Source: Eunapius fragilis (taxonomy: Eukaryota > Porifera > Demospongiae > Spongillida > Spongillidae). Taken from it: 64,000 bases of DNA. The position numbers and the translations under genes are program-made. Shown here piece after piece: positions 6,001-61,359 of this stretch. Under the pieces are notes generated by a model that did not search any database, was not told the DNA's origin, and saw only the letters and a program-made list of their open reading frames with translations. The stretch covers positions 4,394,122 to 4,458,121 of the forward strand of contig OY811983.1 of assembly GCA_963681505.1 (NCBI GenBank). The letters run 5' to 3'. How positions within the stretch are numbered: position 1 is the first letter of the stretch; each line of letters opens with the position of its first letter.

Positions 6001-9000
6001 CAACCACTTAAACCAATTCATTAGTGCAGCAAGAGATTGTGCCAGGATTATTGATCCGGTTAAATTGGTGTTAATATACCAAAGGAGTTCATTATTAATG
6101 TTGAACCGTTCGAATCAGCCAGATACAACTGTTCTTACAATGCATGTCAAAAAGGTGGTTCCATTAAGACACTGTTCGCAACAAGTTTTTGTACCATCCC
6201 GATGGTACCAAGAAGCAATGGGTATCATATTCACCATCATTGTGTTCAGTAACGAAGAATAGGACTTTCAAAATATTTAACAGTTCCTATAAACATACGC
6301 ATATATGGTATAACAAGTGTACACAATACAATAGTAAATAGCAAGCTTAGTACCATCACTGCTGGGTATAAGTAGTTAATTATCATTGTATAAATCTCTG
6401 CTCAAGCATAATTTGGAAGGGGGTAGCAATGACCACGAAAAGATCCTTCAAAACACATGTTTGAGGCAGTGTAGTATTGACACATAAAATATTAAGTATC
6501 ACATGAAATCAGAGATGTATGGTTTGTCCATTTTAAGCCCACTGTGGAATAGGTGGGTATACTCCAGAAAGGAATGTTTTAAAAGCAGCAGAGTTTTGCA
6601 CTGCAAAAAAAAATCATCTACCTATAGAAATTCAATAGTTGTACAAGCCTAATTTTTAGGATTGAGCATTCTTTCAAACAAAAAGTGACTTGCTGAAAGG
6701 CTGAGGTTTTGAGAATACATTGCCATTATATTACTCCCACTATGATATTTCCCTTACAGCAGCATCTGGAAAAAAGTAAACAGCAGCAGACAAAAAGGAG
6801 CTAGAGACATTTCTTATTAGTAGTGCCACTCATAATACATGTACTAATCAATCAAAATGTAATTACAGAATTGATTGCACACCATGTATGGTAGAATTTT
6901 GTTTTATTTTCTTGGTTCCTCTTTCTATGGAACATACAAATGCTGTTACACCTAGGAGTTCAAAAGTTATTATAGGAGGTTTTTTGATTGATTGATTGAT
7001 TGATTTGATTTACAGGTACAAAAAGTACACTGAGGTAAATAATGGCATGTGCAAATTCTAATTACTTTAAATGTGTAGCACTGTTTTATCACTATAGATT
7101 TGTCCTTTTAGCAGTTTTACTTCACCCGTTATGAAAATATACATGTAGTTACTGCACTTTCCCAGTCGGTTCACACCAATGATTTTTAAAATCCATGTCT
7201 CATTCAATGTATGGGATGCGGATGCCCAAATCATTGTCGCGAATTGGGCAGAAAAATGCACTTTTGCACAGGACAAACCAATAGAAACAGTACCCCTCCA
7301 TATACAATGTAAAACATTTGCACACTCCAATAGAAAAATATTGAACCCGTAGGGATTATACCATAGGAAGAGACTAATAGAGAATCTAACTTCTACCATA
7401 GAGAAATGGTGAAATATGATGGTAGAAAATACAATGGCAATAGCATTAATTTTTCAGAAGTTATAGCAATTCAAACGGAGAGCATAAAAAACCATTTTAT
7501 TTGGCATAACTTGGTTAAATCTATCAACATCCTGTTTTCAACAAGCATTTCTCTATTGTAGTATTTGTTTTATTCTTTCTGTTACGAAGATATAACCAAG
7601 TGAAGTGGGTGTACATTTCCCAGCCTGATTGGTGTTAATTACCTAGGCAGCTGCTTCCCATGGAAGCAATGTGCCTACACATTGGTGCAACATAATGCAT
7701 GTACTTTGCACAGTTATACATGTAACTTCATAACATGTAGAGTACAAATTAACAAACAGGACAAACAAATCAAACGGAACTCCTACACGTACAATGTATG
7801 CACACCAAATTAAATCATATGTATGGGTGCTGATTGCTCTTGATATCGTGAAGTCAGCATGTGCATTAGAACTATACATTGCAATGATTCCATCTCTGAA
7901 CATCTAGTGGCTTGCAAACAAGCATTAGGACATCCCTGAATGAACATGATGTACATTTTACATGGAATACACCTTAGATGAACATTTCAATACAAAGAAC
8001 CATTTTCTGGAATTATAATATAGTTTACTACGCTCCCTAAATTCTTCTAGGGATGGTTCTATCAGTTAATGTATACTCTGTATGGCACTGAGTTGAATTG
8101 TTAAAACTATCACTTCAAACCGCTAATGAATATCACATACCCTGAAAGTCTTGCACTCTAGAAGCTTGCACTTTGGATATCAACTCTTGGCTATATGTAG
8201 AAGTATATTTATGCATATCTATACAAAGCTATTCTCTATCAATTAACATGTCATGCGCTATGCAATACAGTCATAATGAATGCACACACACACACATGAA
8301 TTATTTGAAGGATCACAGAGACAACTCTGCTCAAAAATAAATGCCGCATTCATGAAAAGCAAACCTTTCTTCCAGTGATTTTGATAGCTTGAGTATTTTT
8401 GACTGAATAAAGTATAAAAAGCATTGAATAAACTATCCGGGACAATACATTATGCATTAGTGCTTATACATGCACCACCCCCTGGCCCTGCCCACTTAGG
8501 TTGCTGTTTCAATGGCCACAAATGACTTAGTGCATTATTTAAAATATTTTGTATTGTATCAGCTTTCATGAAAAATCGTGCGGCAAAAGGACATAATGTG
8601 CACTTGAATGCAGTAAACATTACGATACATTACCTTCATGTTTTTAACAGTAACTGTGGCATATTGTATCTTTATAGTGTGTGCATATAGTGTTGTTCAA
8701 GCCCAGAACAGTCAGTATACCAGTACACCCAATATACCTAGCACAATATGTACAGTGCTGCAGTTATGACACTTAACCATTACTGGATATTTACATTATT
8801 TCCCCATTCGCAATCCTAGGAAGTCGAAAAGCAGATTTTAAAATTAACACACACACATATACATATGTATCAACTGCACATGTAGTTCTGAATGTAAAAT
8901 TATCATGATCGCACATCATACTTCAAGTATTGCTTTCTCAGTTTTCAAGCTCTCCACAGTAATTTTGTGTTCCTTGCTCAATTCATCAATGACCAAATTA

Positions 9001-33294: not shown

Positions 33295-33639
33295 TTACAA
33301 AGCAAGTAGACTGCGTGATCTGAGTTCGTGCACTTTCTTGTACATATCTAAGTTAAGTCCTTCGACGCAACGATACACATATGCTCTTAGTATCAACTGA
33401 CTGTCACTTCCAACACGTACTTCACCGATGAACTGATATATAATTCGCTGCCTGAATGGAAAAGGCTCTATCAAACTACAGTCTATAACAAGTGTGGAGT
33501 CTGAATCGGCATCTTTAATAACAAGTTGTTGCTTTTGAATATTGTGCTCTTGTAGTTCTCCAATTGTACGAAGCAACTTTCCTACTGGAATTTCTCCATA
33601 ACGAAGCACTGCAATAGGTACGAACGCTGCTGATGACAT
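33295..33639 (-). CDS. TEN1: TEN1, CST telomere-capping complex subunit
   Basis: A single uninterrupted frame of 114 residues (human TEN1 123) starts MSSAAFVPIAVLRYGEIP. Key matches to the vertebrate protein are LRTIGEL (human LRTFGRL), DCSLIEPFPF (CTKLVEPF), YQFIGEV (YIVLGEL) and YRCVEGLNLDMYKKV (LTCVEGMNLPLLEQA). This is an OB-fold protein that joins STN1 and CTC1 to bind single-stranded telomeric DNA and restart replication with Pol alpha. The frame stays open upstream to an ATG at 33756, which would add 39 residues; the start at 33639 is chosen because it aligns with the family start. Human TEN1 has introns and this copy has none. It lies just downstream of RAB14 on the same strand. Confidence 0.87.
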   Translation of the reverse strand: MSSAAFVPIAVLRYGEIPVGKLLRTIGELQEHNIQKQQLVIKDADSDSTLVIDCSLIEPFPFRQRIIYQFIGEVRVGSDSQLILRAYVYRCVEGLNLDMYKKVHELRSRSLLAL

Positions 33640-34106
33640 CTCGAACAGTATGTGGTAATCACCTTTATTATACAGGTGAAAATTCAGATCTGTAACATCA
33701 CCGATACGCATACGTGACCGCTTCCGTTCTGAATGGGCGGGAAACTTGAAGGGCAATCAAACACTGAAAAACAACCTCATGTAGGATTCGTGCTGAAAGA
33801 CCCTACATTTGAAGTACAGGGCGCCAGAACACTACGTACCCCCTCGACTATACCTTAATCTACCCTGTAAGTGGCTAACCTTTTCCATACATGTTCTTCA
33901 GTTGAACATAATCAACTTCACCACAAACTTTGATGAATATCAATAACACACATTCTTTTATTACACACAAGAACATGATTCAATCATATAGCAGTATCTG
34001 CTATTTTCTGTATGACAACAGTTCACTTAGCACCATAGAGCATACGTATAAACATTCTGGGCAACAAGAAACTCTAACTACATTAAACATAAAAAAGCCT
34101 GATAAT
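33640..34106. other. short intergenic region between RAB14 stop and TEN1 start
   Basis: It contains the likely RAB14 polyadenylation signal and, by position, the TEN1 promoter. The TEN1 frame stays open up to 33756, so part may be a longer TEN1 N-terminus. No repeat was recognised. Confidence 0.5.
33957..33962 (-). terminator. candidate polyadenylation signal of RAB14
   Basis: AATAAA on the minus strand, about 145 bases past the RAB14 stop codon. Confidence 0.55.
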
Positions 34107-44400: not shown

Positions 44401-47400
44401 TGGTAAAATTATTTCAAAAAGTACGATTGTAGGAGAATGTCTTGGTGATAGTTGTGTGACCAAGGGATGAATATAGTGTTTTTTCCAGTTGGACTTAAAT
44501 GTGGTATGTCGTATTAATTCGAATACAAACAATATTTTATTTGCATATTAAAACAGTGCCCATGCAATGAATTTTACATTGCCATAAAGCATCACAAAGG
44601 TAACAGCTAATGTAAGACATTTACAACATGTTGTACATGGTTTTTACATTAGCACTTAGTTGTATAAAGAAATGTGACATTACGTGGCAATATCAAAACC
44701 ATATTGCTGGTACTGCTTTGATCTGGTATGATACAGTACATATACCAAATTGCAGTACCTTTACTTTCAGCTATCCACATATATATGACTTGTTTTTTTT
44801 TTTTTTTAAACCCAGGATCCATCATCTGTGCTGTCCATTGATGCTCTACTCAGTAAGTTGTGCATCAAAATAATTTACCTGTAGGAGGCATGAATGTTTT
44901 GCATTCTGATGCAGTATAAAGCTATGTATGTGTTTGAAAATTAACTGAAACACACTTACATACATGTGCATGCATTGCAAAGTTTTCACCCATACAAAAC
45001 TTACAAGACAAAATAAGAGCTCTCATCAGTTTTCTAAAGAATTGTGTGAGCAGTTAGGCCATTTCATCAGTTCGGTAATAATTAATAGCACTAACATGAA
45101 GAATTGTTCATTGTAAAGTGTAAAATAAGATCATGCCTATTCCAAAGTATTTCAATATTTTTGTCTCTCTCCCATGAGACTACATGTAGAATGTACATGT
45201 ACCTAGAATTGTCAAAACAAATCTGTGCAATCTGCAGCTCTGCTCTGTCTTATTTTTAATTGACCATGTTGTTGTCTGGAGTACCATGCAGAATACACAC
45301 ATTTCTTAACATATTAATTGTTTTTCTCTGTTAGAGTGGGCTCAAGAAATTACACAGGGATATCATGGTGTATCAATAGTCAACATGACGACCTCTTGGA
45401 GAAATGGATTGGCATTTCTAGCTATCATTCACTATTACAAACCCCAGCTTTTGTAAGTTCATGACAGTAGTTCTGATTATAGTCATATGTGTGTACTTCA
45501 AGTGCACATATAGTCATGTGTGTGACGTTGCTTTCTTCATTATAGTGATTATGATCAGCTGGCACCAACCAGCATCAAGGAGAATAACAAGTTGGTATGT
45601 ATAACTGATGTAGACCAATAGGTACACAATATTTGCAATAATTGTCATTACCCTCTGCATGTTGTATTCCTTCCTGACAAGCATTGTATGATTATGTTAG
45701 ATTGTGTGTATGCATGTGTTGCAGCACTACATCCAAATTCACCCTTAGTGGTTGTGCGGACATTACAAAGTGAACCTTGAACTTGGGCACATACAGTTCT
45801 TCCCCCCTCCCTCCTACACACTCACTTTTATTTGTCTATTTCAGTGTACTAGTACAGGATTAAACAAGGGACTTTGGGGGAAGTCCCAGTGTATGGTAGG
45901 GTCTGCAGAGTTGTGATTGATGCTTCTTGCATTCCCTAGCTGTGAGGGAGAGGTACTCCCCCTCCCTTACCCTCATTATTTCTCATTTTGGACACACCAC
46001 TCTCATGTGGAATCACACTGTTGGCAACCTTCTATTGGGGGAATCCCAAAAAACTCACCAATTCTTTATTGATGGCCAATGTTGTGCCATTTAAAATGTA
46101 ACTGCACTATGCCAAATGTACCTAGTCTTCATTACTAACTACATGTAAATCATTAAACTACATTCACCTTTGCCTCCACATCATGCTTCATCAAAAAGTA
46201 GCTGCTACATGTAGGTGATTTTAAAGTCAAGTGCTAGACAGCCATTTTTCAATATGGTATAATACATGTGGTTTTCATTGTAAACTGGACATAATGTTTG
46301 TAGGCTAAGATTATAGCTTTGGGGGAACTGCAATAAGTGCTGAATTTCATGTACAAATGTTGAACTGAAGAATTTCTGCATTTGGTTCTTTTTAAACCTT
46401 ACTGTTACTAAGAATTCACAGTTCTTAATTGAGTTAAAACTATGTGAGGAACCTGAATGTATAAAGCCACACAATTGCCATGCTACACATTGCACATTAT
46501 ATTAGATATGTTTGTTTATGTGTTTATGCACTGTTATTATCCTTTTCAGGCATTTGAACTTGCAAGAAGCTTAGGCATTTCTTGTCCTCTCACAGTCAAC
46601 ATGATGCTTACCAATACTGTACCAGACAAATTGGCCATTACATCATTTGTTTACCAGATGAATAGCTATTTCACCAAAGCAACTCTCTCTGCAATTGCCA
46701 GAGATGGCAATGCATTGCAGAGTGGAAGCCCCAATTTGTCTTCATTCGATCTGGCTTCATTCCAGCAGTTCACATATAATAACATTCCCACTTCCCCCAC
46801 TTCACTTGCTGGGGCACAGAACCATGAGAAACACAACCTGTACTCTCGTCATAGCAAGTCTTCTCTTAATGAAGGGTCCGCCATCACTGAGGTGCCTCAG
46901 AGTGAACCTTCCATTGAGGCAGGAGGCATTGCAGGAAATAGTGATGTGAAACAAACTGAGGGTACCCAGTCCCAGACAAAGACACTAGATGATGGTGGTA
47001 ATGTGCAGATGAATTCAAAATCTATAACTAGTAATGGTGTGGCAGTGTATTCAAAACCTACATCATTTAAAAATAGTCCTGACACTGCAATGCATGCAAA
47101 GTCTAGTACACCTTTACCCTTATTAGAAGGTAATACGAACCCAAGAACAGAGGCTTTATCCTTGGAAAGTGGTGCTGGTGGTGATTCCATGCCCAATCCA
47201 AGTTTATCTTCACATGTGGATAGTGCAGATAGGAATGTAGTTTATTCGAAGTCTATTACAAGTTCATCCTTAGAAGGTACAAATAGTGGTAGGACACACT
47301 CAAAACCTAGTACAAGTTCATCTTCACTTTTGGGAAGTTCTAATGGTAGTGCAATGCATTTAAAGCCTAGTGCTAGTTCACCTTCACTCTTAGAAGGAAA

Positions 47401-50400
47401 TAATGAGGGCCAGTTGCACTCAGAACCAACCACCTCATCTATATTAGAATGTAAAAACACTCAAGTGAATTCTAAGTTAAGTACTTCTTCATCTCTGGTG
47501 GAAGATGGAAGCAAAAGTGGTCAAATTCAACCCTCACCTTGTGCTGACACTGCCACTGATATCAGTGAACCTGGCACATGTATCGCAAATGCAGATAAGC
47601 TGGAGCAGTCACCACCAACTGGTGGTAGTATTGAAACAAAACCTGTAGTGCCACCCACAAATGATGAGGTTAGTTATTTCAGTGGTGGTGTGGTATGTAT
47701 AATATGGAGGGGGTGAGGCGGGAGGTAATCTCATAGCTTAGATACAAATTCAGTGATTATACTGAACATCTAAATATATGCAAGTACATGTATCATGTCA
47801 TGTACAAATTAGTATGGTTCTAAGTTAATGATGCATGTACCTTCAACAGAAACATATTGGTGCGGTACAACCATCAATGTGTCCAGTGCAAGGTTCTTGC
47901 AACCTTTCTTACCCTTCAGATTTGGCCTTGGGAGGCTTTGATGGTTCAATTTAATTACTGATGATTGTTCCAACCATAGTCTCATACTATGCAATCAGGG
48001 TCATTTGCTGTATTTAGAGTCTGAATGATTTATCTTGATTGTAGGATGCCTTGCGTATAAACAAATGCAGGCATGAGTAGTTGATTAATTGGACAAGAGC
48101 TTGTCTTTATTTGCTCATATTCACCTGGTTATACATGTATCTGTCGGACATGTACACATTGTGTGTGTTGAGTTTAAATACTGATTAGTGTGGTCTATGG
48201 AACCGATTTGTATGTTAATGTCTAATGTACTGGGTGTCATCCCTGGGGTAATTTGTCTACCGCGGTGTACATAAAATAAATTTATTCACGTTCTGCCACA
48301 TTTTACATTTTACAGTGCATGCTCGTTGTACAGGTCCTTTGGAGCTTGGCCCGAAATTCCCAAGCTCTAATTCTTTTTCTCTGGCCCCAAAACAGAACGC
48401 TGTCAAAGCAAAGCAATTTGATTGAGATTTGCGTGGTTACTATAACTGTGTAACTCAATTGCTTTGACGCTCTGGCTTGGAACTAGAAAAAAATAATTAT
48501 GCTTGGGAATTTTATGCCAAGCTCCAAAGGACCTGTACAATGCAAATGCACTGTCAAATATAAAAGGGATGTTAAACTGGTAGAAGGTGAATACATTTAT
48601 TTTCTGTACACCGTGGTAGACAAACGTACCCTGGGAGGACGCCTAGTACATTAGATATTTTACTTGAAATGCTATAGAATGAGTGATGCAGTGTTGTACA
48701 TGTGTGCTGCAAGATCCATTAGTACTGTATTAAATAAAGTGCTGTCAGTTTTTTGTTTGACTTACATTCATCCTGTGATTAGGCCAAAAGATTACTACGG
48801 AAGAAAGAAGTCCAAAAACTGCTGAAGCAAGTGCGAAACCGTGATGGATTGTTTAATACTTCCAAGAGTTCTTGTGTAAGTAAAATGATGTGGCCTTGGT
48901 TAGATTACCTGTACTGGCTAATTGTATACAACTGAGCCACCATTTTAGCATCATTGTCAAGATTTGAAGTATAACTTTTCATACATATGTAATCATTGTA
49001 TACAACTGAGCCACCATTTTAGCATCATTGTCAAGATTTGAAGTACAACATATGTTATCATTGTATACAACTGAGCCACCATTTTAGCATCATTGTCAAG
49101 ATTTGAAGTACAACTTCTCACGATGTAGGGCATAGCAACTTATGCAATTACACATAAACCTTTACTCTGATGGGGATATACTATGTATATAACTTGTTAC
49201 CCTATATTTAGGTACTATAACTTCCGCACAGATCGTGCTATGCCCAATCAAGTTTACTATGTTTGTGTTTGTCAAATATATATTCCAAACATATAACAAA
49301 GGATATGTAAATGTACGTATTCCAGAGAGTATATAAGAGAAGTGGTGCTTGCTTTTAAACATAGTGTATAATTACTGTGCACGTGCATACATTGTACATA
49401 TGCTCTGCTTACTTATATAATAATTATGCAACAGTGTTCAATAATATACATGTGTATGCAACAATATTCAGCAGTGAACTTTGGTGGATGTTTAAAACAT
49501 TGCCGGTTTATTCTACATACAATTGAAACACTAATTTTGAAGTAATTAAGTCTAACTCTTTCAGGTTACACAACATGCATGTGCATATATAAAGCAGGAT
49601 CTTATATTACACAGGATTCTGATTCATCTGAAAACCAGTATGTCAGAGCTGCACGTAATTTGATTGCTACCACGCTGGACACAAGTTCCGACTCAACCAA
49701 GGAAATTGAAGTTAGAACACTTAACAATGCAAAGGACAAAAGTGAACCCCCATCAGACATTGAAGACCAATCGCTGTCATTTTATACAAATACATCACTG
49801 AACTACCAGTCTCCCTCTACTCATAGTACTGAGAAAACAAGTGGCATGAATACTAATCCATTGTCGCACAGAAGCCCTGAACTGTCAGGTACTAGTGCCT
49901 TGAAATCAGGTGGTCTCAGTTCCTCTGCACTGTCTCCTAGTGATAACAGTATTTCAGGTATAAGTAGTAACACAGAACAAGACGAGTCAATTCTGATAAG
50001 TCCGCCTGATGTGCAACCATATTTCACAAAACGTGAGTCACAAGGTGAGGAGACAGCAACAAAGAGGTTAGAAGTACAGCAAATGGAGGCCAAAATAAAT
50101 GACACAGAAGGACTTAGGGTCAAAAAAGAGGCAGAACGACAGAAGGCCAAAGAGGAGGAAGAAGCAGAGCAATTGGAGGCTGCAAGGGAAAAAGCTGATG
50201 ATGGGAATAATGGAGCTTCTGCTGAGGTGACTAGACATAATCAGCATGCATGTATAAAAGTGTATGGTCTACTATGTACACTGTAGTACCAAATACAGTG
50301 TCTAAATACATGACTTGTGTAGTTTTATTGTGTTCACTTGTACATGTGTATTTTGTATACAGGATTGGAACCAGCACAGTGAAGCTCTTTCACAGGTAAG

Positions 50401-53400
50401 TTTGTTTACATTAAATAAACTGTTTCGTTCAGTCACTTGGGCTTAGGCTGAGAAGGGGTTGGTTTATGCTCTTTATTTTTTGACTAACTAGAATAAAAAC
50501 GAATAAAGCAGCAATTGATATTGTGCACTATTATACTGTAGCCTGTAGAACTGTACATGTACACAATTGTATACATGGGTGATGGTTTTAGCAAATTCAA
50601 GTGCTGATCTTAATCCTTTGATGATTAGTGATGCAGTTATCCTGAATTTTATTTTTGTGTACATGTACATGTATATACAGGAGCAAATAGAATAGTTCAA
50701 ATGTCCTCTCATTTGTATGGAATCGGTGTAAAATCTGATCTGAACCATTAACTTCTTATTTTCACTACAATAGAAATAATTTTGTCCCTACCTTATACAG
50801 AGAGCGTTACCCTTTAGGGTTCAAAACCTATGTATCTTAATACATGAGTGTTAATTTTGTACACATATTGGAGTCCTGTCGCTGTTAATTTGTCCTGTTC
50901 ATTCATTTTTTCTTCACACATTACGAATATTTGTTCAGAGTCCATGCACATTTGATTTGTGCCAATGATTTAGGCCATTCAATTTATGGGAGGTGAGTGG
51001 CTAAATAATTGGTATGAATCAAGCGGGAAAATGTGCACATACTTTGCTCTCCTAAATTTTCCTAATGGGTGGAGTAAAATTTAAAAAAAGGGCAAATCAA
51101 TAGTGACAGGACTGCTCTACGTATGTAACCAGATTTGACTATTCCTGGTAAGAAGATATATAGGTTTCCAATCCCTCTTAGAGTGTGTATGGAGGGAAGG
51201 TAAGAAACAAAAATGAGTTCTACCATACATGTATAGAGAGGTTGCAGTGTCATCCCGGGAAGATCGGTGGCCATGTTTTTTGGTGTCCCCTGTTCTGTTA
51301 CAGGTTGTAAACAATCCGTTACAGATTGGAAACATTCTGTAACAGAAATGGAGACACAAAAAACATGGCCACCAATCTTTCCAGGATGACACTGCAACTT
51401 CTCTGTTATAATAATGGTGTGGAATTATTTTATTTGAATGTTATACCAATTCCAACTCAGAGCATTTTAATAACCTTATATTAAATGAGGAGCTATTATT
51501 GGGACTTTAAAAGGGATCAGTTGTGTAAATGTGCATGGTACACATTTGAATATTTTTTCTGCTAGTGGTATTGATGCTGATTTAGTAACAATGCAAACTA
51601 TCCATAGGACATGCTGCTCTCTCAAAGTGAATATGTGAAAGGCGAATTAACAAAATTGAAAATTCAGCTTCAGAAGCTTGAAGTCAGAGCTTCTAGCATT
51701 GAAGTGGACATCAGAGATGCTATGTCACAAGGTATGCATGTGATATTTAATCTTTTTATTTTGGTTGAACATTGTAGTTTTTATGGGAGTAAATACAATA
51801 CAAGCAAATTCTCCATGGTTTTTAAACTTGTTACTTTGTTGAATAAATAGCTGTGCATTCATGTTAATGTTTAAAATATCCCAGCGTTGATTACATCATT
51901 TAAACTGCAATCTGGCATCTTATCTAAAATAATTCACTATCCAAATCATGATAGTGATACAGCATACACACGTACCTGTGATGATAGTAAGTTTATCATT
52001 CATGCACATCATAAAACGTGCAACACAATAAAATGCGTGCAATTTAATCCAAAAAAAAAAAAACAATGACTATCATTGTAATTAGTTCTTGTGGTGGTTT
52101 GAATTCATATGTATTATGTGTTCCAATTCAGCTACTTATGGGTATGTGTTCAATAAGAATTTCTCAACATGTGACAGTGACCTAAATAGTATAAACTACA
52201 TTTACTAGCAATTTGCCTTTCATTTTTCTCCACCTAGGGGATAAGCGACGAGAGGAATTGCTGATGCAAGAGTGGTTTGGAATTCTGAATCGGAAAAATA
52301 AGTTGATTAAACACCAAATCAGCCTCAATATACTGTGTGTCTTGTGTATATTACTCAAGGATTTTGTTTATCTCATTTAATTTTTCAGTGACAAAGAAGA
52401 AGATCTAGATCGCAGGCAGTTTTTCTTAAGACGGGAATTAAGATCACTAATGAGTGTTCAAGGTGTGTAAATGCACATCTGTCCATGGTTATTAGAGTAG
52501 TAAAAACATCGTATAATATTTATCTCAAGCAAGACCTTGGTCTTTGTAAAGAACTACTTTTGAAATAATAATAATAATATACATACTTAATAAATGCAAG
52601 ATGTTTTACAGTTACATATACATGTAAACTACAGCTGTACATGGACATATAATTTTGAGGAATGACCTTTGACGTTTTCCGCCTATACTGTAGCCAATCT
52701 CATGTGGTTGAAATGTTGATGTTGCTTTGTATTGTAGACAGTCAAAAGACACAGGAGCAAAAAGTCAGAGAGGCCCAACTATTGCAACAATTGGTGGACC
52801 TTGTTGATGAACAAGATAGGCTTGAGAGAAAAAAGATGGCTACACAAGGGAGGTAAGTTGTGCTTATCATTTACAGCAATCAATCATGCATGCAGAGTTT
52901 AGCGTTTCATCGAGAAGGAAGGAATGTGTTTACAAAAAGCAATGCAATGTATGTTCTATGCTCTGTTACAGTGCACATTGGAAATGCTTTGTACAGAAGT
53001 GCATGCTGATGAATATGCTTCAACCATTTCCTTTGTACTGGTTCAACTTGTAAAAAATTTAGTTATGTCACAAGTTGTTACCTGTGCAGAAGAATACTTA
53101 TAATATGCCCTGTGTGCATGGTGCAGTTACAAGGATGTAACTTGTAAGTGGAAATAAATTCATAAACATTATACAAAACTGGTGTTCTTCTGCACAGGCG
53201 ATTGTTTGTGAAATAAGCACTTGATTTGTTACGCAAGGAGTTGGGAGCTAATAATACTAGTGCAAAGTATATGGCGTATAACACACATAAAATTCTGTGT
53301 TTATATGTGGACACCTTTTGTCTCTTATTGCCAGAGGTCCAGATGACGCTGAACCTGTTGCACCATTGCAGAGCAACCCAAAGCAGGGTTCCAAAGAATG

Positions 53401-56867: not shown

Positions 56868-59800
56868 TTACAGCCTTGTTAGCACATGAACTGGCCTAAA
56901 GGCATATGAAAGCTTAAACCTCTCAGTAAAATATGTTCCTGTTGCATCAATGGACTCAATTAGTTCCACATCAAAATGCTGTTTGAATAAGTCCTTAACT
57001 GTTGAATTAGGGACAGAAAACGGGTGTGCTTTGCGCTTTGACTGGTCATACTCCCACGTTGCCATCAAGATTTTGCCTCCAGGTTTCATGAGTGTAGCGA
57101 GAAGGCTGGCATATCTCTCACGATCTTCCACATTAAGAGCTACAATAGAATTACAATCCCAAACACAATCAAATCTTTCTGTATAACTGCTTGTAAAGTT
57201 GAAAATATCACCAACATATATTTTGATATTGCGGTCAGTGGCTGAATAGATAGTGTAGTTTGCATCTCCTAATGGGAGAAATTGTGCATGTAAATCTGTG
57301 GCATGCATAGAAATACGTACAGTACAAAAAAGTGATTACAGAATGTTCTACAAGAAAATGGGTCTTGTGGATATATATATATATATAGCATCCAAATCAA
57401 ATCAATATATGAAATATTAACGCTATCGGGTTGCTATTTATAACACAACATACCACATCATTGCTATATGCGAAAATCCATTTTGGTGTCTTATGGAAGT
57501 GGGGTACTGACGTTACAAGGTCAGATACCATATAGTTCCAAAAAGTCACATGTTCAGGTAGGAACATTAAAATCGCTTCAATTTCGTTAAGTACGTAGAA
57601 GGATGTGTACTGTTCGTTAATTTTTACTTTATTCATTATGGAGATAAAGCTGTGCAAAGTGTTTGCAAGCAATTCGCACCAGTAATTTTGGCAATTCAAT
57701 GTATGGGAAGCGGGTGCCAATTCATTGGCACGAATCCAGTGGGAAATCGTGCACACACTTTGCACAACTATATCTCAATAAAGGATGAAGTAAAAATTAA
57801 CGAACAGGACAAATCAATAGTGACAGGACCCTTCTATGTACATACCGAATTTGAAGTGATTTGAACACTCCTACCTGATAATGTGGCTATTTGGAACCAC
57901 ATGGGGTATTGGACCTTGTAACATCGGTACCCTGCATCAGTAAGACACCAAAATGTATTTTAAAATATAGCAGGGGTGTGGTATGTAGTGTTAAAATAGG
58001 AACCTTGTAGTGTTAATTTTTTGGAAGATATATTGATTTGATTTGGATGCTATATATATAAATATAAATCCACAAGGCCCATTTTCTCATAGAACTTTCC
58101 ATATATATATGGAACGTTCTATGGGAAAATGGGTCTTGTCGATTTATATATATAACATAAAAAGCAAATCGATATATCTTCAAAAATATTAATGGTATCG
58201 GGTTCCTATTTTAAACACAACATACCACACCATTACTATATGTGAAAATCCATTTTGGTGACTTACTCATGCGGAGTACTGACGTTACAAGGTCTGATAC
58301 CCCATAGGGTTCAAAACGGCCACATCTTCAGGTAGGAGCATCGAAATCGATTCAAATTCGGTACGTACGTAGAAGGGTCCTGTTGCTGTTCTGTTCATTA
58401 ATTTTTACTTTATCTGTTATGGAGATATAGCTGTGCAAAGTGCGTCCACGGTTTCCCGCTCGATTCACGCCAATGATTTAGGTACTCGCTTCCCATGCAT
58501 TGAATGTAGGACACACTCAAAACGTAGTACAAGTTCATCTTCACTTTTGAAGCCTAGTGCTAGTTCACCTTCACTCTTAGAAGGAAATAATGAGGGCCAG
58601 TTGGTAATTCACTGGTGTGAATCGAGCAGGAAACCATGCACACACTTTGCACAGCTATATCTCCGTAACGAATAAAGTAAAAATTAACGAACAGAACAAA
58701 TCAATAGCAACAGGACCCTTCTACATATATACCGAATTTGAATCGATTTGGACGACTCCTATCTGAAGATGTGGCCATTATGAACTCTATGGGGTATCAG
58801 ACCTTGTAACATTGGTACTCCGCAAGTAGGACACCAACATGGATTTTCACATATGTGTGGTATGTTGTGTTAAAATAGGAACCTGACAGCGTTAATATTT
58901 TGGGAGATGTATCGATTTGCTTTTTATGCTATATAAATATAGAAATATATAAATATATAAATCCACAAGACCGATTTTCCCATATAACGTTCCATATATA
59001 TATACGGATGGGGGTTGGGGAATGGGTTAAGATAAAAAAATTACAGCTGGTCAGCATTACGCAAGCTTAATAGAGTGCACGCCTCGTAATTTCAACACAA
59101 AAATTGGGGTGCTTGTAACAGATCCGTCAAAGAGCTAAGTGTAGGTGAAAGAGCTATGTACAATAAAGGAAGTCTTATATGAGACAGTTCCTACAATCAA
59201 GTGCTTGTTTTGACTGCCAACATGTTATGATGCCTGCTATTGGTTTGAGCAAGATAAAGCACTCGGCACCTCAATGGAGGGCTTCTGAAATTACAATGTG
59301 CACATTTACCTAATAGAAAAGAATTGATTATACAAGTCAGAAATTATGACGATTAGAAAATGTATTGCAATCACATGCATTTATGGATACGTACTACAGA
59401 TACTACATACTCTGCACATAAAAGTATATTTCTTTCCACACACACACACACACCCACAATACATGCTTATGTATAAATATTAGCAGGAAGAATGCCAAAA
59501 TGTAAAATAAATCATCCATGTCAGTAATTTACTCTACCAACTAATAATACACATATACATGTGTAGCAGCAACATTGGCGCATGTAGTACCTTATCATGA
59601 AAACAATGTACAAACCTGAAGTAGAGTAAGGAATTTTATTCTCTTCAAAAAATTGCTTAGCAGCTACTTCTGATAGTTCACAGCCCATAACAGTGTGTCC
59701 CTTCTCATTTAGCCATATGAGATCCAAGGTTTTACCACACAAAGGAACAAAAATAGAACATCCGGATTTTCCACTGATAACTCTGTCCACATGTGCCTGT

Positions 59801-60641
59801 ATATACAACATGGACATGTACAATAACAGTCAATGCCCATTGATAACTTTGTCTACATATGCCTGTACATACAAAGTATACATGTACAGATGAAAATAAA
59901 AGCTGGTAGTTTTTGGAGTGGATTCTTACTGAGGTAGGAGGTTGGGAGTGTTGGAACTGGGTAATAATATTCATCAGGACTATATAGGACCTGATACTTA
60001 TTTATCAGAAATGGGTTCAATTTAGAGTGCCTCAGCTGCTGCTAATATAGCACTCCCTGCTGCAATGCAAGCACACTCCAGTGGGTGTGCGAGAACAGAT
60101 CTCACTGAGCTTAATAAATTATACTGCATGTAATTAAAGATTGGCAAACTTATAATTGGTAGTATAGTTAAATGTTGAATGAAGTGTTTGTTTTTCTACA
60201 GCACCATTCAGTATTCCCAGCTAATGCGCCAAGGGTATGGTACTTTATAACTTGCGTGGGAACACTTTTTATAAACTCTTCAATAGAAGTGATATGCCTG
60301 GGTGCTTTAGAAGAACTGGAACACTTGCTGCAGGACATGAATTTATATATAGGTGGGCCGGCCGGCGTTTAAGATAAAAAAATAAGATAAAAAAAAATAA
60401 AATAAAAACTCTAATGCGCAGAAGCTAACTTGAACTATGCGCACGCAATGAATGGCAATGTACTAGTAACTGGTACCGTAGGCAGCTTAGGCTATCTTAG
60501 TTCCAACAGGAGAGAGAACGGTAGTTTAAACTCACGTACCTGTAATACACTGTCTACTACAGTTTTATGCCACGCAGTTTCTCCTGTGTTCCACCGTGTT
60601 AACCAGTAATTCTGATCATGGCTCTCGAGCTGTTGTTCCAT
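56868..60641 (-). CDS. TPMT: thiopurine S-methyltransferase-like (TPMT family), complete
   Basis: Three exons: 60540-60641, 59616-59796 and 56868-57295, giving 236 residues (human TPMT 245) with closed phases. The start MEQQLESHDQNYWLTRWNTG matches the family's LEEWQDKWVNGKT region and continues TAWHKT. The SAM-binding motif I is FVPLCGKTLDLIWLNEKGHT followed by GCELSE, as in human FFPLCGKAVEM. Later blocks are FDCVWDCNSIVALNVEDRER, MKPGGKILMATWEYD and HPFSVPNSTV. The enzyme would be a cytosolic SAM-dependent methyltransferase; the substrate in this animal is unknown. Intron 2 (57296-59615) is filled by two adjacent foldback elements, one carrying an EHBP1 fragment. Confidence 0.93.
57345..58098. 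mobile_element. about 750-bp foldback element in TPMT intron 2, without cargo
   Basis: Long arms mirror each other: ACAAGAAAATGGGTCTTGT, TCGGGTTGCTATTTATAACA and ACGTTACAAGGTCAGATACC on the left, and their complements in reverse order to 58098. The tip reads CAATTCAATGTATGGGAAGC. This is the ordinary member against which the neighbouring copy can be compared. Confidence 0.8.
58099..58998. mobile_element. about 900-bp foldback element in TPMT intron 2 carrying an EHBP1 exon fragment
   Basis: The arms are about 400 bp each. The left terminus TGGAACGTTCTATGGGAAAA pairs with the right terminus TTTTCCCATATAACGTTCCA. At the tip, instead of the family's usual bases, 97 bp at 58507-58603 match EHBP1 exon 11. 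It lies immediately beside the cargo-free element 57345-58098. Confidence 0.85.
58507..58603 (+). pseudogene. captured fragment of EHBP1 exon 11
   Basis: It is the same as EHBP1 coding bases 47290-47416 except for one substitution (C to G) and one 30-bp internal deletion. The reading frame of the source is kept: RTHSK, STSSSSLL, KPSASSPSLLEGNNEGQL. It has the same strand as EHBP1 and is antisense to TPMT. Confidence 0.92.
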
Positions 60642-61359
60642 GACTGTCCCTGTCTCCCACAATGGACGAGTTGCGCGTAAGGTACAAAGAATTTAATCAT
60701 TCTTAATTATTACATCCGGACTGCTACTGTTTGAACGGAGCTCAACGTGTAATACCGCCATCCTTGGGAAACCTTACTAACGTTGACGATAGAGAATCTA
60801 TAGTCGAATTAGCTGCTTATTGGCCTCTCGGTTTTTTGCCCTCTTGAGGGGGGAAGGGGGGGGGGGGGGGCGACGATTGTTATTCGCTTCGCTATTTGGA
60901 AAATGTCTAATGGCGCAAACGCGATGGTGAGGCATTTTATCCCCTGGCTGTAAGTTAAACACAGTAAGCTAGTCAGATAGCTGCCTTTCTAGGTTAGTAG
61001 GGAATCTATGAAAGGAGGCATTTGGATCGCCGGATTTGCTGTTGTCACACACTCGGCACCATGTGTCGGGCATAGCAGCTGTTTATTCTGTAACATCGGC
61101 ACCATCAAGCATGCAGCAATTCTGTGACAACATCCACCTTTAAACAACCTCCACTTCTGCAGCTGATGTCGGAGAACAACTAGTGAGCGACTATCAAGTG
61201 CATGAGTTGTCCAACAATGTTGACGATGCCTCACAGTCAGGCGCATTACCCATCGATGGGTTCAATCTAGCTCCCTTCAGACTGAATCATTAGTTAATGC
61301 TCCCAGAGTAACTCCACGTATAGAGTATCTAGAAACTCAAAATACTTCCAGAAACGAAT

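Follow-up and report, generated by a model that had tools for sequence, protein, structure and literature searches.

A 98-bp piece of coding sequence at the centre of a foldback (palindromic, MITE-like) element of Eunapius fragilis was copied from an exon of an EHBP1-like gene located at a distance of 11.1 kb on the same strand. We judge it likely, with a probability of about 0.75, that this cargo is a repair patch of the transposition-independent, gap-filling kind seen in single-copy Pack-TIRs, rather than a capture made by a transposing element. In what follows, the window is the whole stretch of 64,000 nucleotides that was analysed, and all positions are those of the window unless stated otherwise.

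The cargo and its source exon

By alignment, the cargo consists of two collinear pieces of the EHBP1-like exon and is identical to it at 97 of 98 bases. The features on the two sides of this comparison are the following.

58506–58603, plus strand: cargo, two collinear exon pieces, 97/98 aligned bases identical, two places in the genome
47289–47332, plus strand: source of the first, 44-bp piece (cargo 58506–58549), one mismatch (exon C, cargo G), by alignment
47363–47416, plus strand: source of the second, 54-bp piece (cargo 58550–58603), zero mismatches, by alignment
46457–47716, plus strand: open frame with the source exon; begins in what is taken as the tail of a CH domain and goes on into Ser-rich 20-residue repeats
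45310–45453, plus strand: EHBP1-like CH-domain stretch; among solved proteins human EHBP1 matches best (E = 2.1e-14 and 2.4e-14), followed by MICAL-2 (1.4e-11)

Between the two source pieces, 30 bp of the exon (47333–47362, ten codons) are missing from the cargo. The first two cargo bases, GT (58506–58507), fit the exon and the element alike and are thus ambiguous. The original prediction, which had counted a 97-bp match with one substitution and one 30-bp gap, is therefore confirmed with one base more. Searched against all 219 Mb of the genome, the cargo aligned to the exon with E = 2e-24. As a query it found two places, namely itself and the exon, and the exon stretch as query found the identical two. 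Thus, the possibility that the matching word is a dispersed repeat, which had been named as the case against the prediction, is rejected. The reverse transfer, in which the exon gained the piece from the element, is also rejected: the piece continues the reading frame and the 60-bp-period repeats of the exon, and other copies of the element family are without it. The proposed direction of copying, from exon to element, stands on the same observations.

The single mismatch falls in a codon that reads CCT in the exon and CGT in the cargo; it is probably a change on the cargo side, since the neighbouring exon repeats, inspected by eye, read CCT as well. The 30-bp skip is half as long as the 60-bp repeat period of the exon, and no exact microhomology is present at its junction, which leaves repeat slippage unsupported as its cause. 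Equally, the copied EHBP1 allele could itself have been without these ten codons. A 100-codon open frame (58373–58675, plus strand) crosses the cargo in frame with EHBP1 and extends into both arms of the element; it is most likely due to chance.

As to the source gene, the name EHBP1-like is supported at the sequence level by the adjacent CH-domain exon, which is closest to human EHBP1, ahead of MICAL-2, and agrees with the EHBP1-type gene that had been proposed. Speaking against it, searches for the NT-C2 and bMERB domains, made exon by exon and hence able to miss split domains, gave no match inside the window, with 5 and 2 matches elsewhere in the genome. Pfam scans of the frames at 46457–47716 and 49546–50286 returned no match.

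The foldback host in a TPMT-like intron

The cargo sits between the two arms of the element at 58111–58993, which adjoins a cargo-free sister at 57341–58100. The elements and the frames around them are as follows.

58111–58505, plus strand: left arm of the element that holds the cargo, with the loop sequence at its end; divergence from the family consensus 5.3% (17/322 sites)
58605–58993, minus strand: right arm of the cargo-bearing element, an inverted copy of the left arm; 6.9% from the consensus (22/320 sites)
57341–58100, no strand: sister foldback element without cargo; arms 14.6% and 13.7% from the consensus; abuts across a TA-rich palindromic junction
56868–57335, minus strand: open frame matching TPMT profile positions 96–196 (E = 2.6e-21), with the elements upstream of it on the minus strand
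59521–59829, minus strand: open frame matching TPMT profile positions 25–81 (E = 2.6e-16)

The arms of the cargo-bearing element align as inverted copies, differing from each other at 10.5% of 352 sites, and the sister carries no insert at the same position; both points had been read correctly before. With inverted repeats that make up nearly the whole element and with many dispersed copies, the host is a foldback element or palindromic MITE, and it holds non-transposon host sequence flanked by the two inverted-repeat arms of one element, as a single-copy Pack-TIR does. The inverted repeats, the dispersed copies and the TA-rich insertion sites make the host a candidate TIR DNA transposon; a clean target-site duplication is not readable at these sites. 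Indeed, both ends of the cargo-bearing element lie in TA-rich, (TA)n-like sequence, so that none can be assigned to it.

At its centre, the majority form of the family reads CATTGAAT-GTC-TAATTCACTGG and the cargo-bearing copy CATTGAATGT[cargo]G TAATTCACTGG. Reduced to the innermost bases, this is GAAT-GTC-TAATTC versus GAATGT[cargo]G TAATTC, which puts the insert at the exact centre. It follows from this comparison that about one base was replaced while both arms were retained. The left junction has a 2-bp match, GT, that qualifies as microhomology; the right junction has none.

Both foldback elements are situated in a TPMT-like intron, since they lie between the frames that match profile positions 25–81 and 96–196. 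The two flanking frames thus bear out the intronic, minus-strand location given in the original prediction. We also agree that transcripts of the TPMT-like gene would contain the cargo antisense to EHBP1, the gene being on the minus strand. The sister element starts about 6 bp beyond the TPMT open frame (57335–57341) and may be very close to the putative splice acceptor of that exon. Elsewhere in the window, minus-strand frames encode a Ten1 telomere-capping domain (33295–33756, E = 1.2e-22) and a Rieske domain (60989–61261, E = 1.4e-4).

To place the cargo in the hairpin, 13 centres without cargo were folded as single-stranded DNA. In nine of them the insertion point fell in the 3' strand of the loop-closing stem; it was partly paired in one and lay within a small side hairpin in three, and the cargo is therefore placed at the loop shoulder. 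The loop measured 12–20 nt in the seven simplest folds. An RNA hairpin of the element would hold the cargo as an unpaired loop, and it is the arms that a Dicer-like enzyme would probably use. The suggestion that the cargo could feed small-RNA pathways is thus weak, because the cargo is at the loop region, outside the hairpin duplex.

Proposed repair patch, rival explanations and known systems

For the patch we propose the following course of events. The foldback element would first have landed in the TPMT-like intron, where its hairpin-prone centre would then have broken or stalled a replication fork. A DNA end would have primed on the nearby EHBP1-like exon and copied about 98 bp as two collinear stretches with the 30-bp skip, and the copied end would have been rejoined across the break by end joining, with about one base lost. 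The copying and the junctions can be read from the alignments; we infer the order of the steps. As to the initial lesion, the yeast Mre11 complex is described as attacking only loops of less than 9 nt (PMC8053094). The loops of 12–20 nt therefore leave a break at the tip unexplained by Mre11, and another break route or fork stalling is assumed.

Repair in place is favoured because there is one cargo-bearing copy, its source is in cis and the breakpoints are central. If sources were uniformly distributed, the chance of one at 11.1 kb would be about 1e-4. The 2-bp microhomology was set aside as evidence for repair, being at chance level (17% when a single junction is specified, 30% when either may count). 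Counted against the patch is that it is a single case (n = 1).

The capture had been described as recent and local. Its local nature is upheld by the distance of 11.1 kb, and its recency comes down to the one difference in 98 sites. Compared over 722 sites, the two arms together show 47 differences from the consensus; 11 of these are private, occurring in below 5% of 63 other arms. The private count (11/722) predicts 1.5 changes in 98 bp, where one was observed (P of at most one, 0.56), and the cruder count of all 47 differences predicts 6.4 (P = 0.013). With CpG sites left out, P becomes 0.48 for the private differences and 0.16 for all of them. An age argument that sets an old element against a young cargo was therefore dropped, as P ranges from 0.013 to 0.56 with the counting scheme.

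The same divergence counts are compatible with a similar age of insertion and capture, which would suit a transposition-dependent event (Pack-MULE-like or FoSTeST), wherein the exon piece was taken elsewhere during transposition or replication and the element then landed in, or hopped locally into, the TPMT-like intron. Multicopy foldback cargo acquired by that route is reported for Ssk-FB4 of Drosophila (PMC8277862). We nevertheless regard this route as unlikely here. No second cargo-bearing copy was found in the 219-Mb genome, whereas a Pack-MULE-type history is recognised by several loci that carry the cargo, each with a target-site duplication of its own. The source is 11.1 kb away, whereas those of multicopy cases are distal (PMC8277862), and with both ends in TA-rich sequence the element offers no assignable duplication. 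With one copy, in cis and with central breakpoints, the Pack-MULE-type capture by a transposing element that had been suggested for this locus is unsupported.

A patch could also be templated by RNA, the break being filled from an EHBP1 transcript by reverse transcription as in human class 2 TSIPs. The piece lies within one open frame, for which an RNA or a DNA origin is possible, and the microdeletion, the microhomology and a possible extra base fit the junctions of that class (PMC5110952). A strong cis bias, however, is what DNA templates would give, unlike RNA, and the 98 bp contain neither a poly(A) tract nor a spliced junction, so that we find an RNA template very unlikely. Finally, long palindromes are hard to sequence (PMC4057610), and an assembly or cloning artefact at this one deserves mention. 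It is hardly credible, given that one substitution and a 30-bp gap relative to the source are not expected from a simple misjoin, that both arms continue normally on either side of the cargo, and that the window is free of N.

The preferred reading, gap-filling repair in place, has close relatives in print. Tan et al. 2021 report 370 Pack-TIRs from 100 animal genomes and attribute most of the single-copy ones to transposition-independent gap filling (PMC8277862). In their data, 160 of 281 unique animal Pack-TIRs lie within 15 kb of the source and 190 of the 281 have microhomology, with a median of 2 bp; breakpoints are skewed inward, the median gap being 4.6% of the element, and the empty element is already present in outgroups for 91 of 97 primate cases (PMC8277862). 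The current case shares with the single-copy animal Pack-TIRs the single locus, the host sequence between the arms of one inverted-repeat element, a unique cis source within 15 kb, central breakpoints, little loss and short one-sided microhomology (PMC8277862). Specifically, its source is unique, it is the single cargo-bearing copy (two genome places in all), and the source is in cis at 11.1 kb. A point of difference is the host, which here is a near-perfect foldback with arms of about 390 bp. It would also escape the published screen, which requires over 100 bp and 80–120% of the source length (PMC8277862): the cargo, at 98 bp, is below the floor, and the ratio 98:128, or 77%, is outside the range. 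We treat these cut-offs as detection thresholds and not as defining a Pack-TIR.

Other systems are similar in part. Ssk-FB4 of Drosophila melanogaster is likewise a foldback with a host gene inside and 2-bp microhomology at one breakpoint; it differs in holding nearly a whole gene, in being multicopy and polymorphic with a distal source, and in having spread by transposition (PMC8277862), whereas the present cargo is a short exon piece in one copy with a cis source. Human class 2 TSIPs are also patches copied from elsewhere, with microdeletion and microhomology and without target-site duplication or poly(A), but TSIPs come from distant regions and are likely RNA-derived (PMC5110952), in contrast to the cis template and palindrome-centre site found here. 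Plant Pack-MULE and Pack-TYPE elements similarly have a coding fragment between the inverted repeats of a non-autonomous DNA element (PMC8903248); unlike them, the present element gives no sign of having spread with its cargo.

The statement in the original prediction that exon capture in a foldback element is little described does not hold, as a foldback case and single-copy animal cases have been published (PMC8277862). Our literature search on foldback elements and gene capture found no paper, and one on sponges and foldback elements found none on the subject as judged by title and start of abstract. The type of event is known already from the 2021 survey; the present case is distinguished by its foldback host and by the position of the patch at the loop shoulder. 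It offers one clean example of how palindromic elements can gain nearby coding sequence by patching, without transposition. The main text of the survey does not contain the words sponge, Amphimedon, Porifera, Cnidaria or Nematostella, and the example lies outside the genomes named there (PMC8277862). In addition, patches that are very short and contain internal skips would be missed with the cut-offs used there (PMC8277862), and their number may be underestimated.

Centres across the element family

The family is abundant, with 2309 candidate places, 40 of which were scored to give 167 matches. The intact 22-base centre, allowing at most two mismatches, occurs at 113 genome places, 100 of them among the matches listed. 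The loci compared were the window's own and 39 others around scored copies, the centres of a second search, six further copies and slices at disrupted centres. The left centre word has 75 exact matches: 40 of them lie next to an intact centre from the list of 100, and the other 35 were read in slices, in other loci (L016, L018, L046, L068) or in the window.

In loci L013–L117, 81 distinct centres were compared, 57 of which have a recognisable second arm. Across these 81, the gap between the ends of the query arms is at most 5 nt in 52, 12–15 nt in three and more than 20 nt in two, namely the cargo-bearing element (99 nt) and L065 (213 nt). The insert of L065 is a nested MITE of a different kind: it has terminal inverted repeats of its own, is flanked by TA on either side and occurs in dozens of copies across the genome. 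The cargo-bearing element alone thus carries a non-transposon insert; none of the remaining 56 in which a second arm was recognised has one. At 24 of the 81 centres the search found no second arm; 15 of these came from 331-base slices, and extending seven loci from those slices (~1.4 kb) revealed none. Among the same 24, a diverged second arm is visible by eye in, for example, L093, L095 and L106, and that of L032 was matched by a longer query. We do not count these armless centres as clean negatives, and the sample, drawn from the best matches, is biased.

One might generalize from the current case that the foldback centre, at the shoulder of the stem-loop, is a recurrent site of breakage and patching, and that an abundant palindromic MITE acts as a scattered trap sampling exon fragments within some 10 kb. 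With an insert of this kind in 0 of the 56 other two-armed centres, such a family-wide trap has little support, and we consider it quite improbable.

Diverged relatives also occur in the window. At 50873–51138, 3 kb downstream of the source exon, there is a much diverged foldback relative (67% over 278 columns) that was matched on both strands. Another diverged family centre, at 7201–7215 on the minus strand, is larger (GAATGAGACATGGATTTTAAAAATCATTGG), as in some other copies. Outside the window, L104, L105, L115 and L116 are repeated, nearly identical one-armed copies (C15:5.46–5.65 Mb), and five identical variant centres are found at C18:4925500–5034120. Both clusters suggest local amplification of blocks containing the elements.
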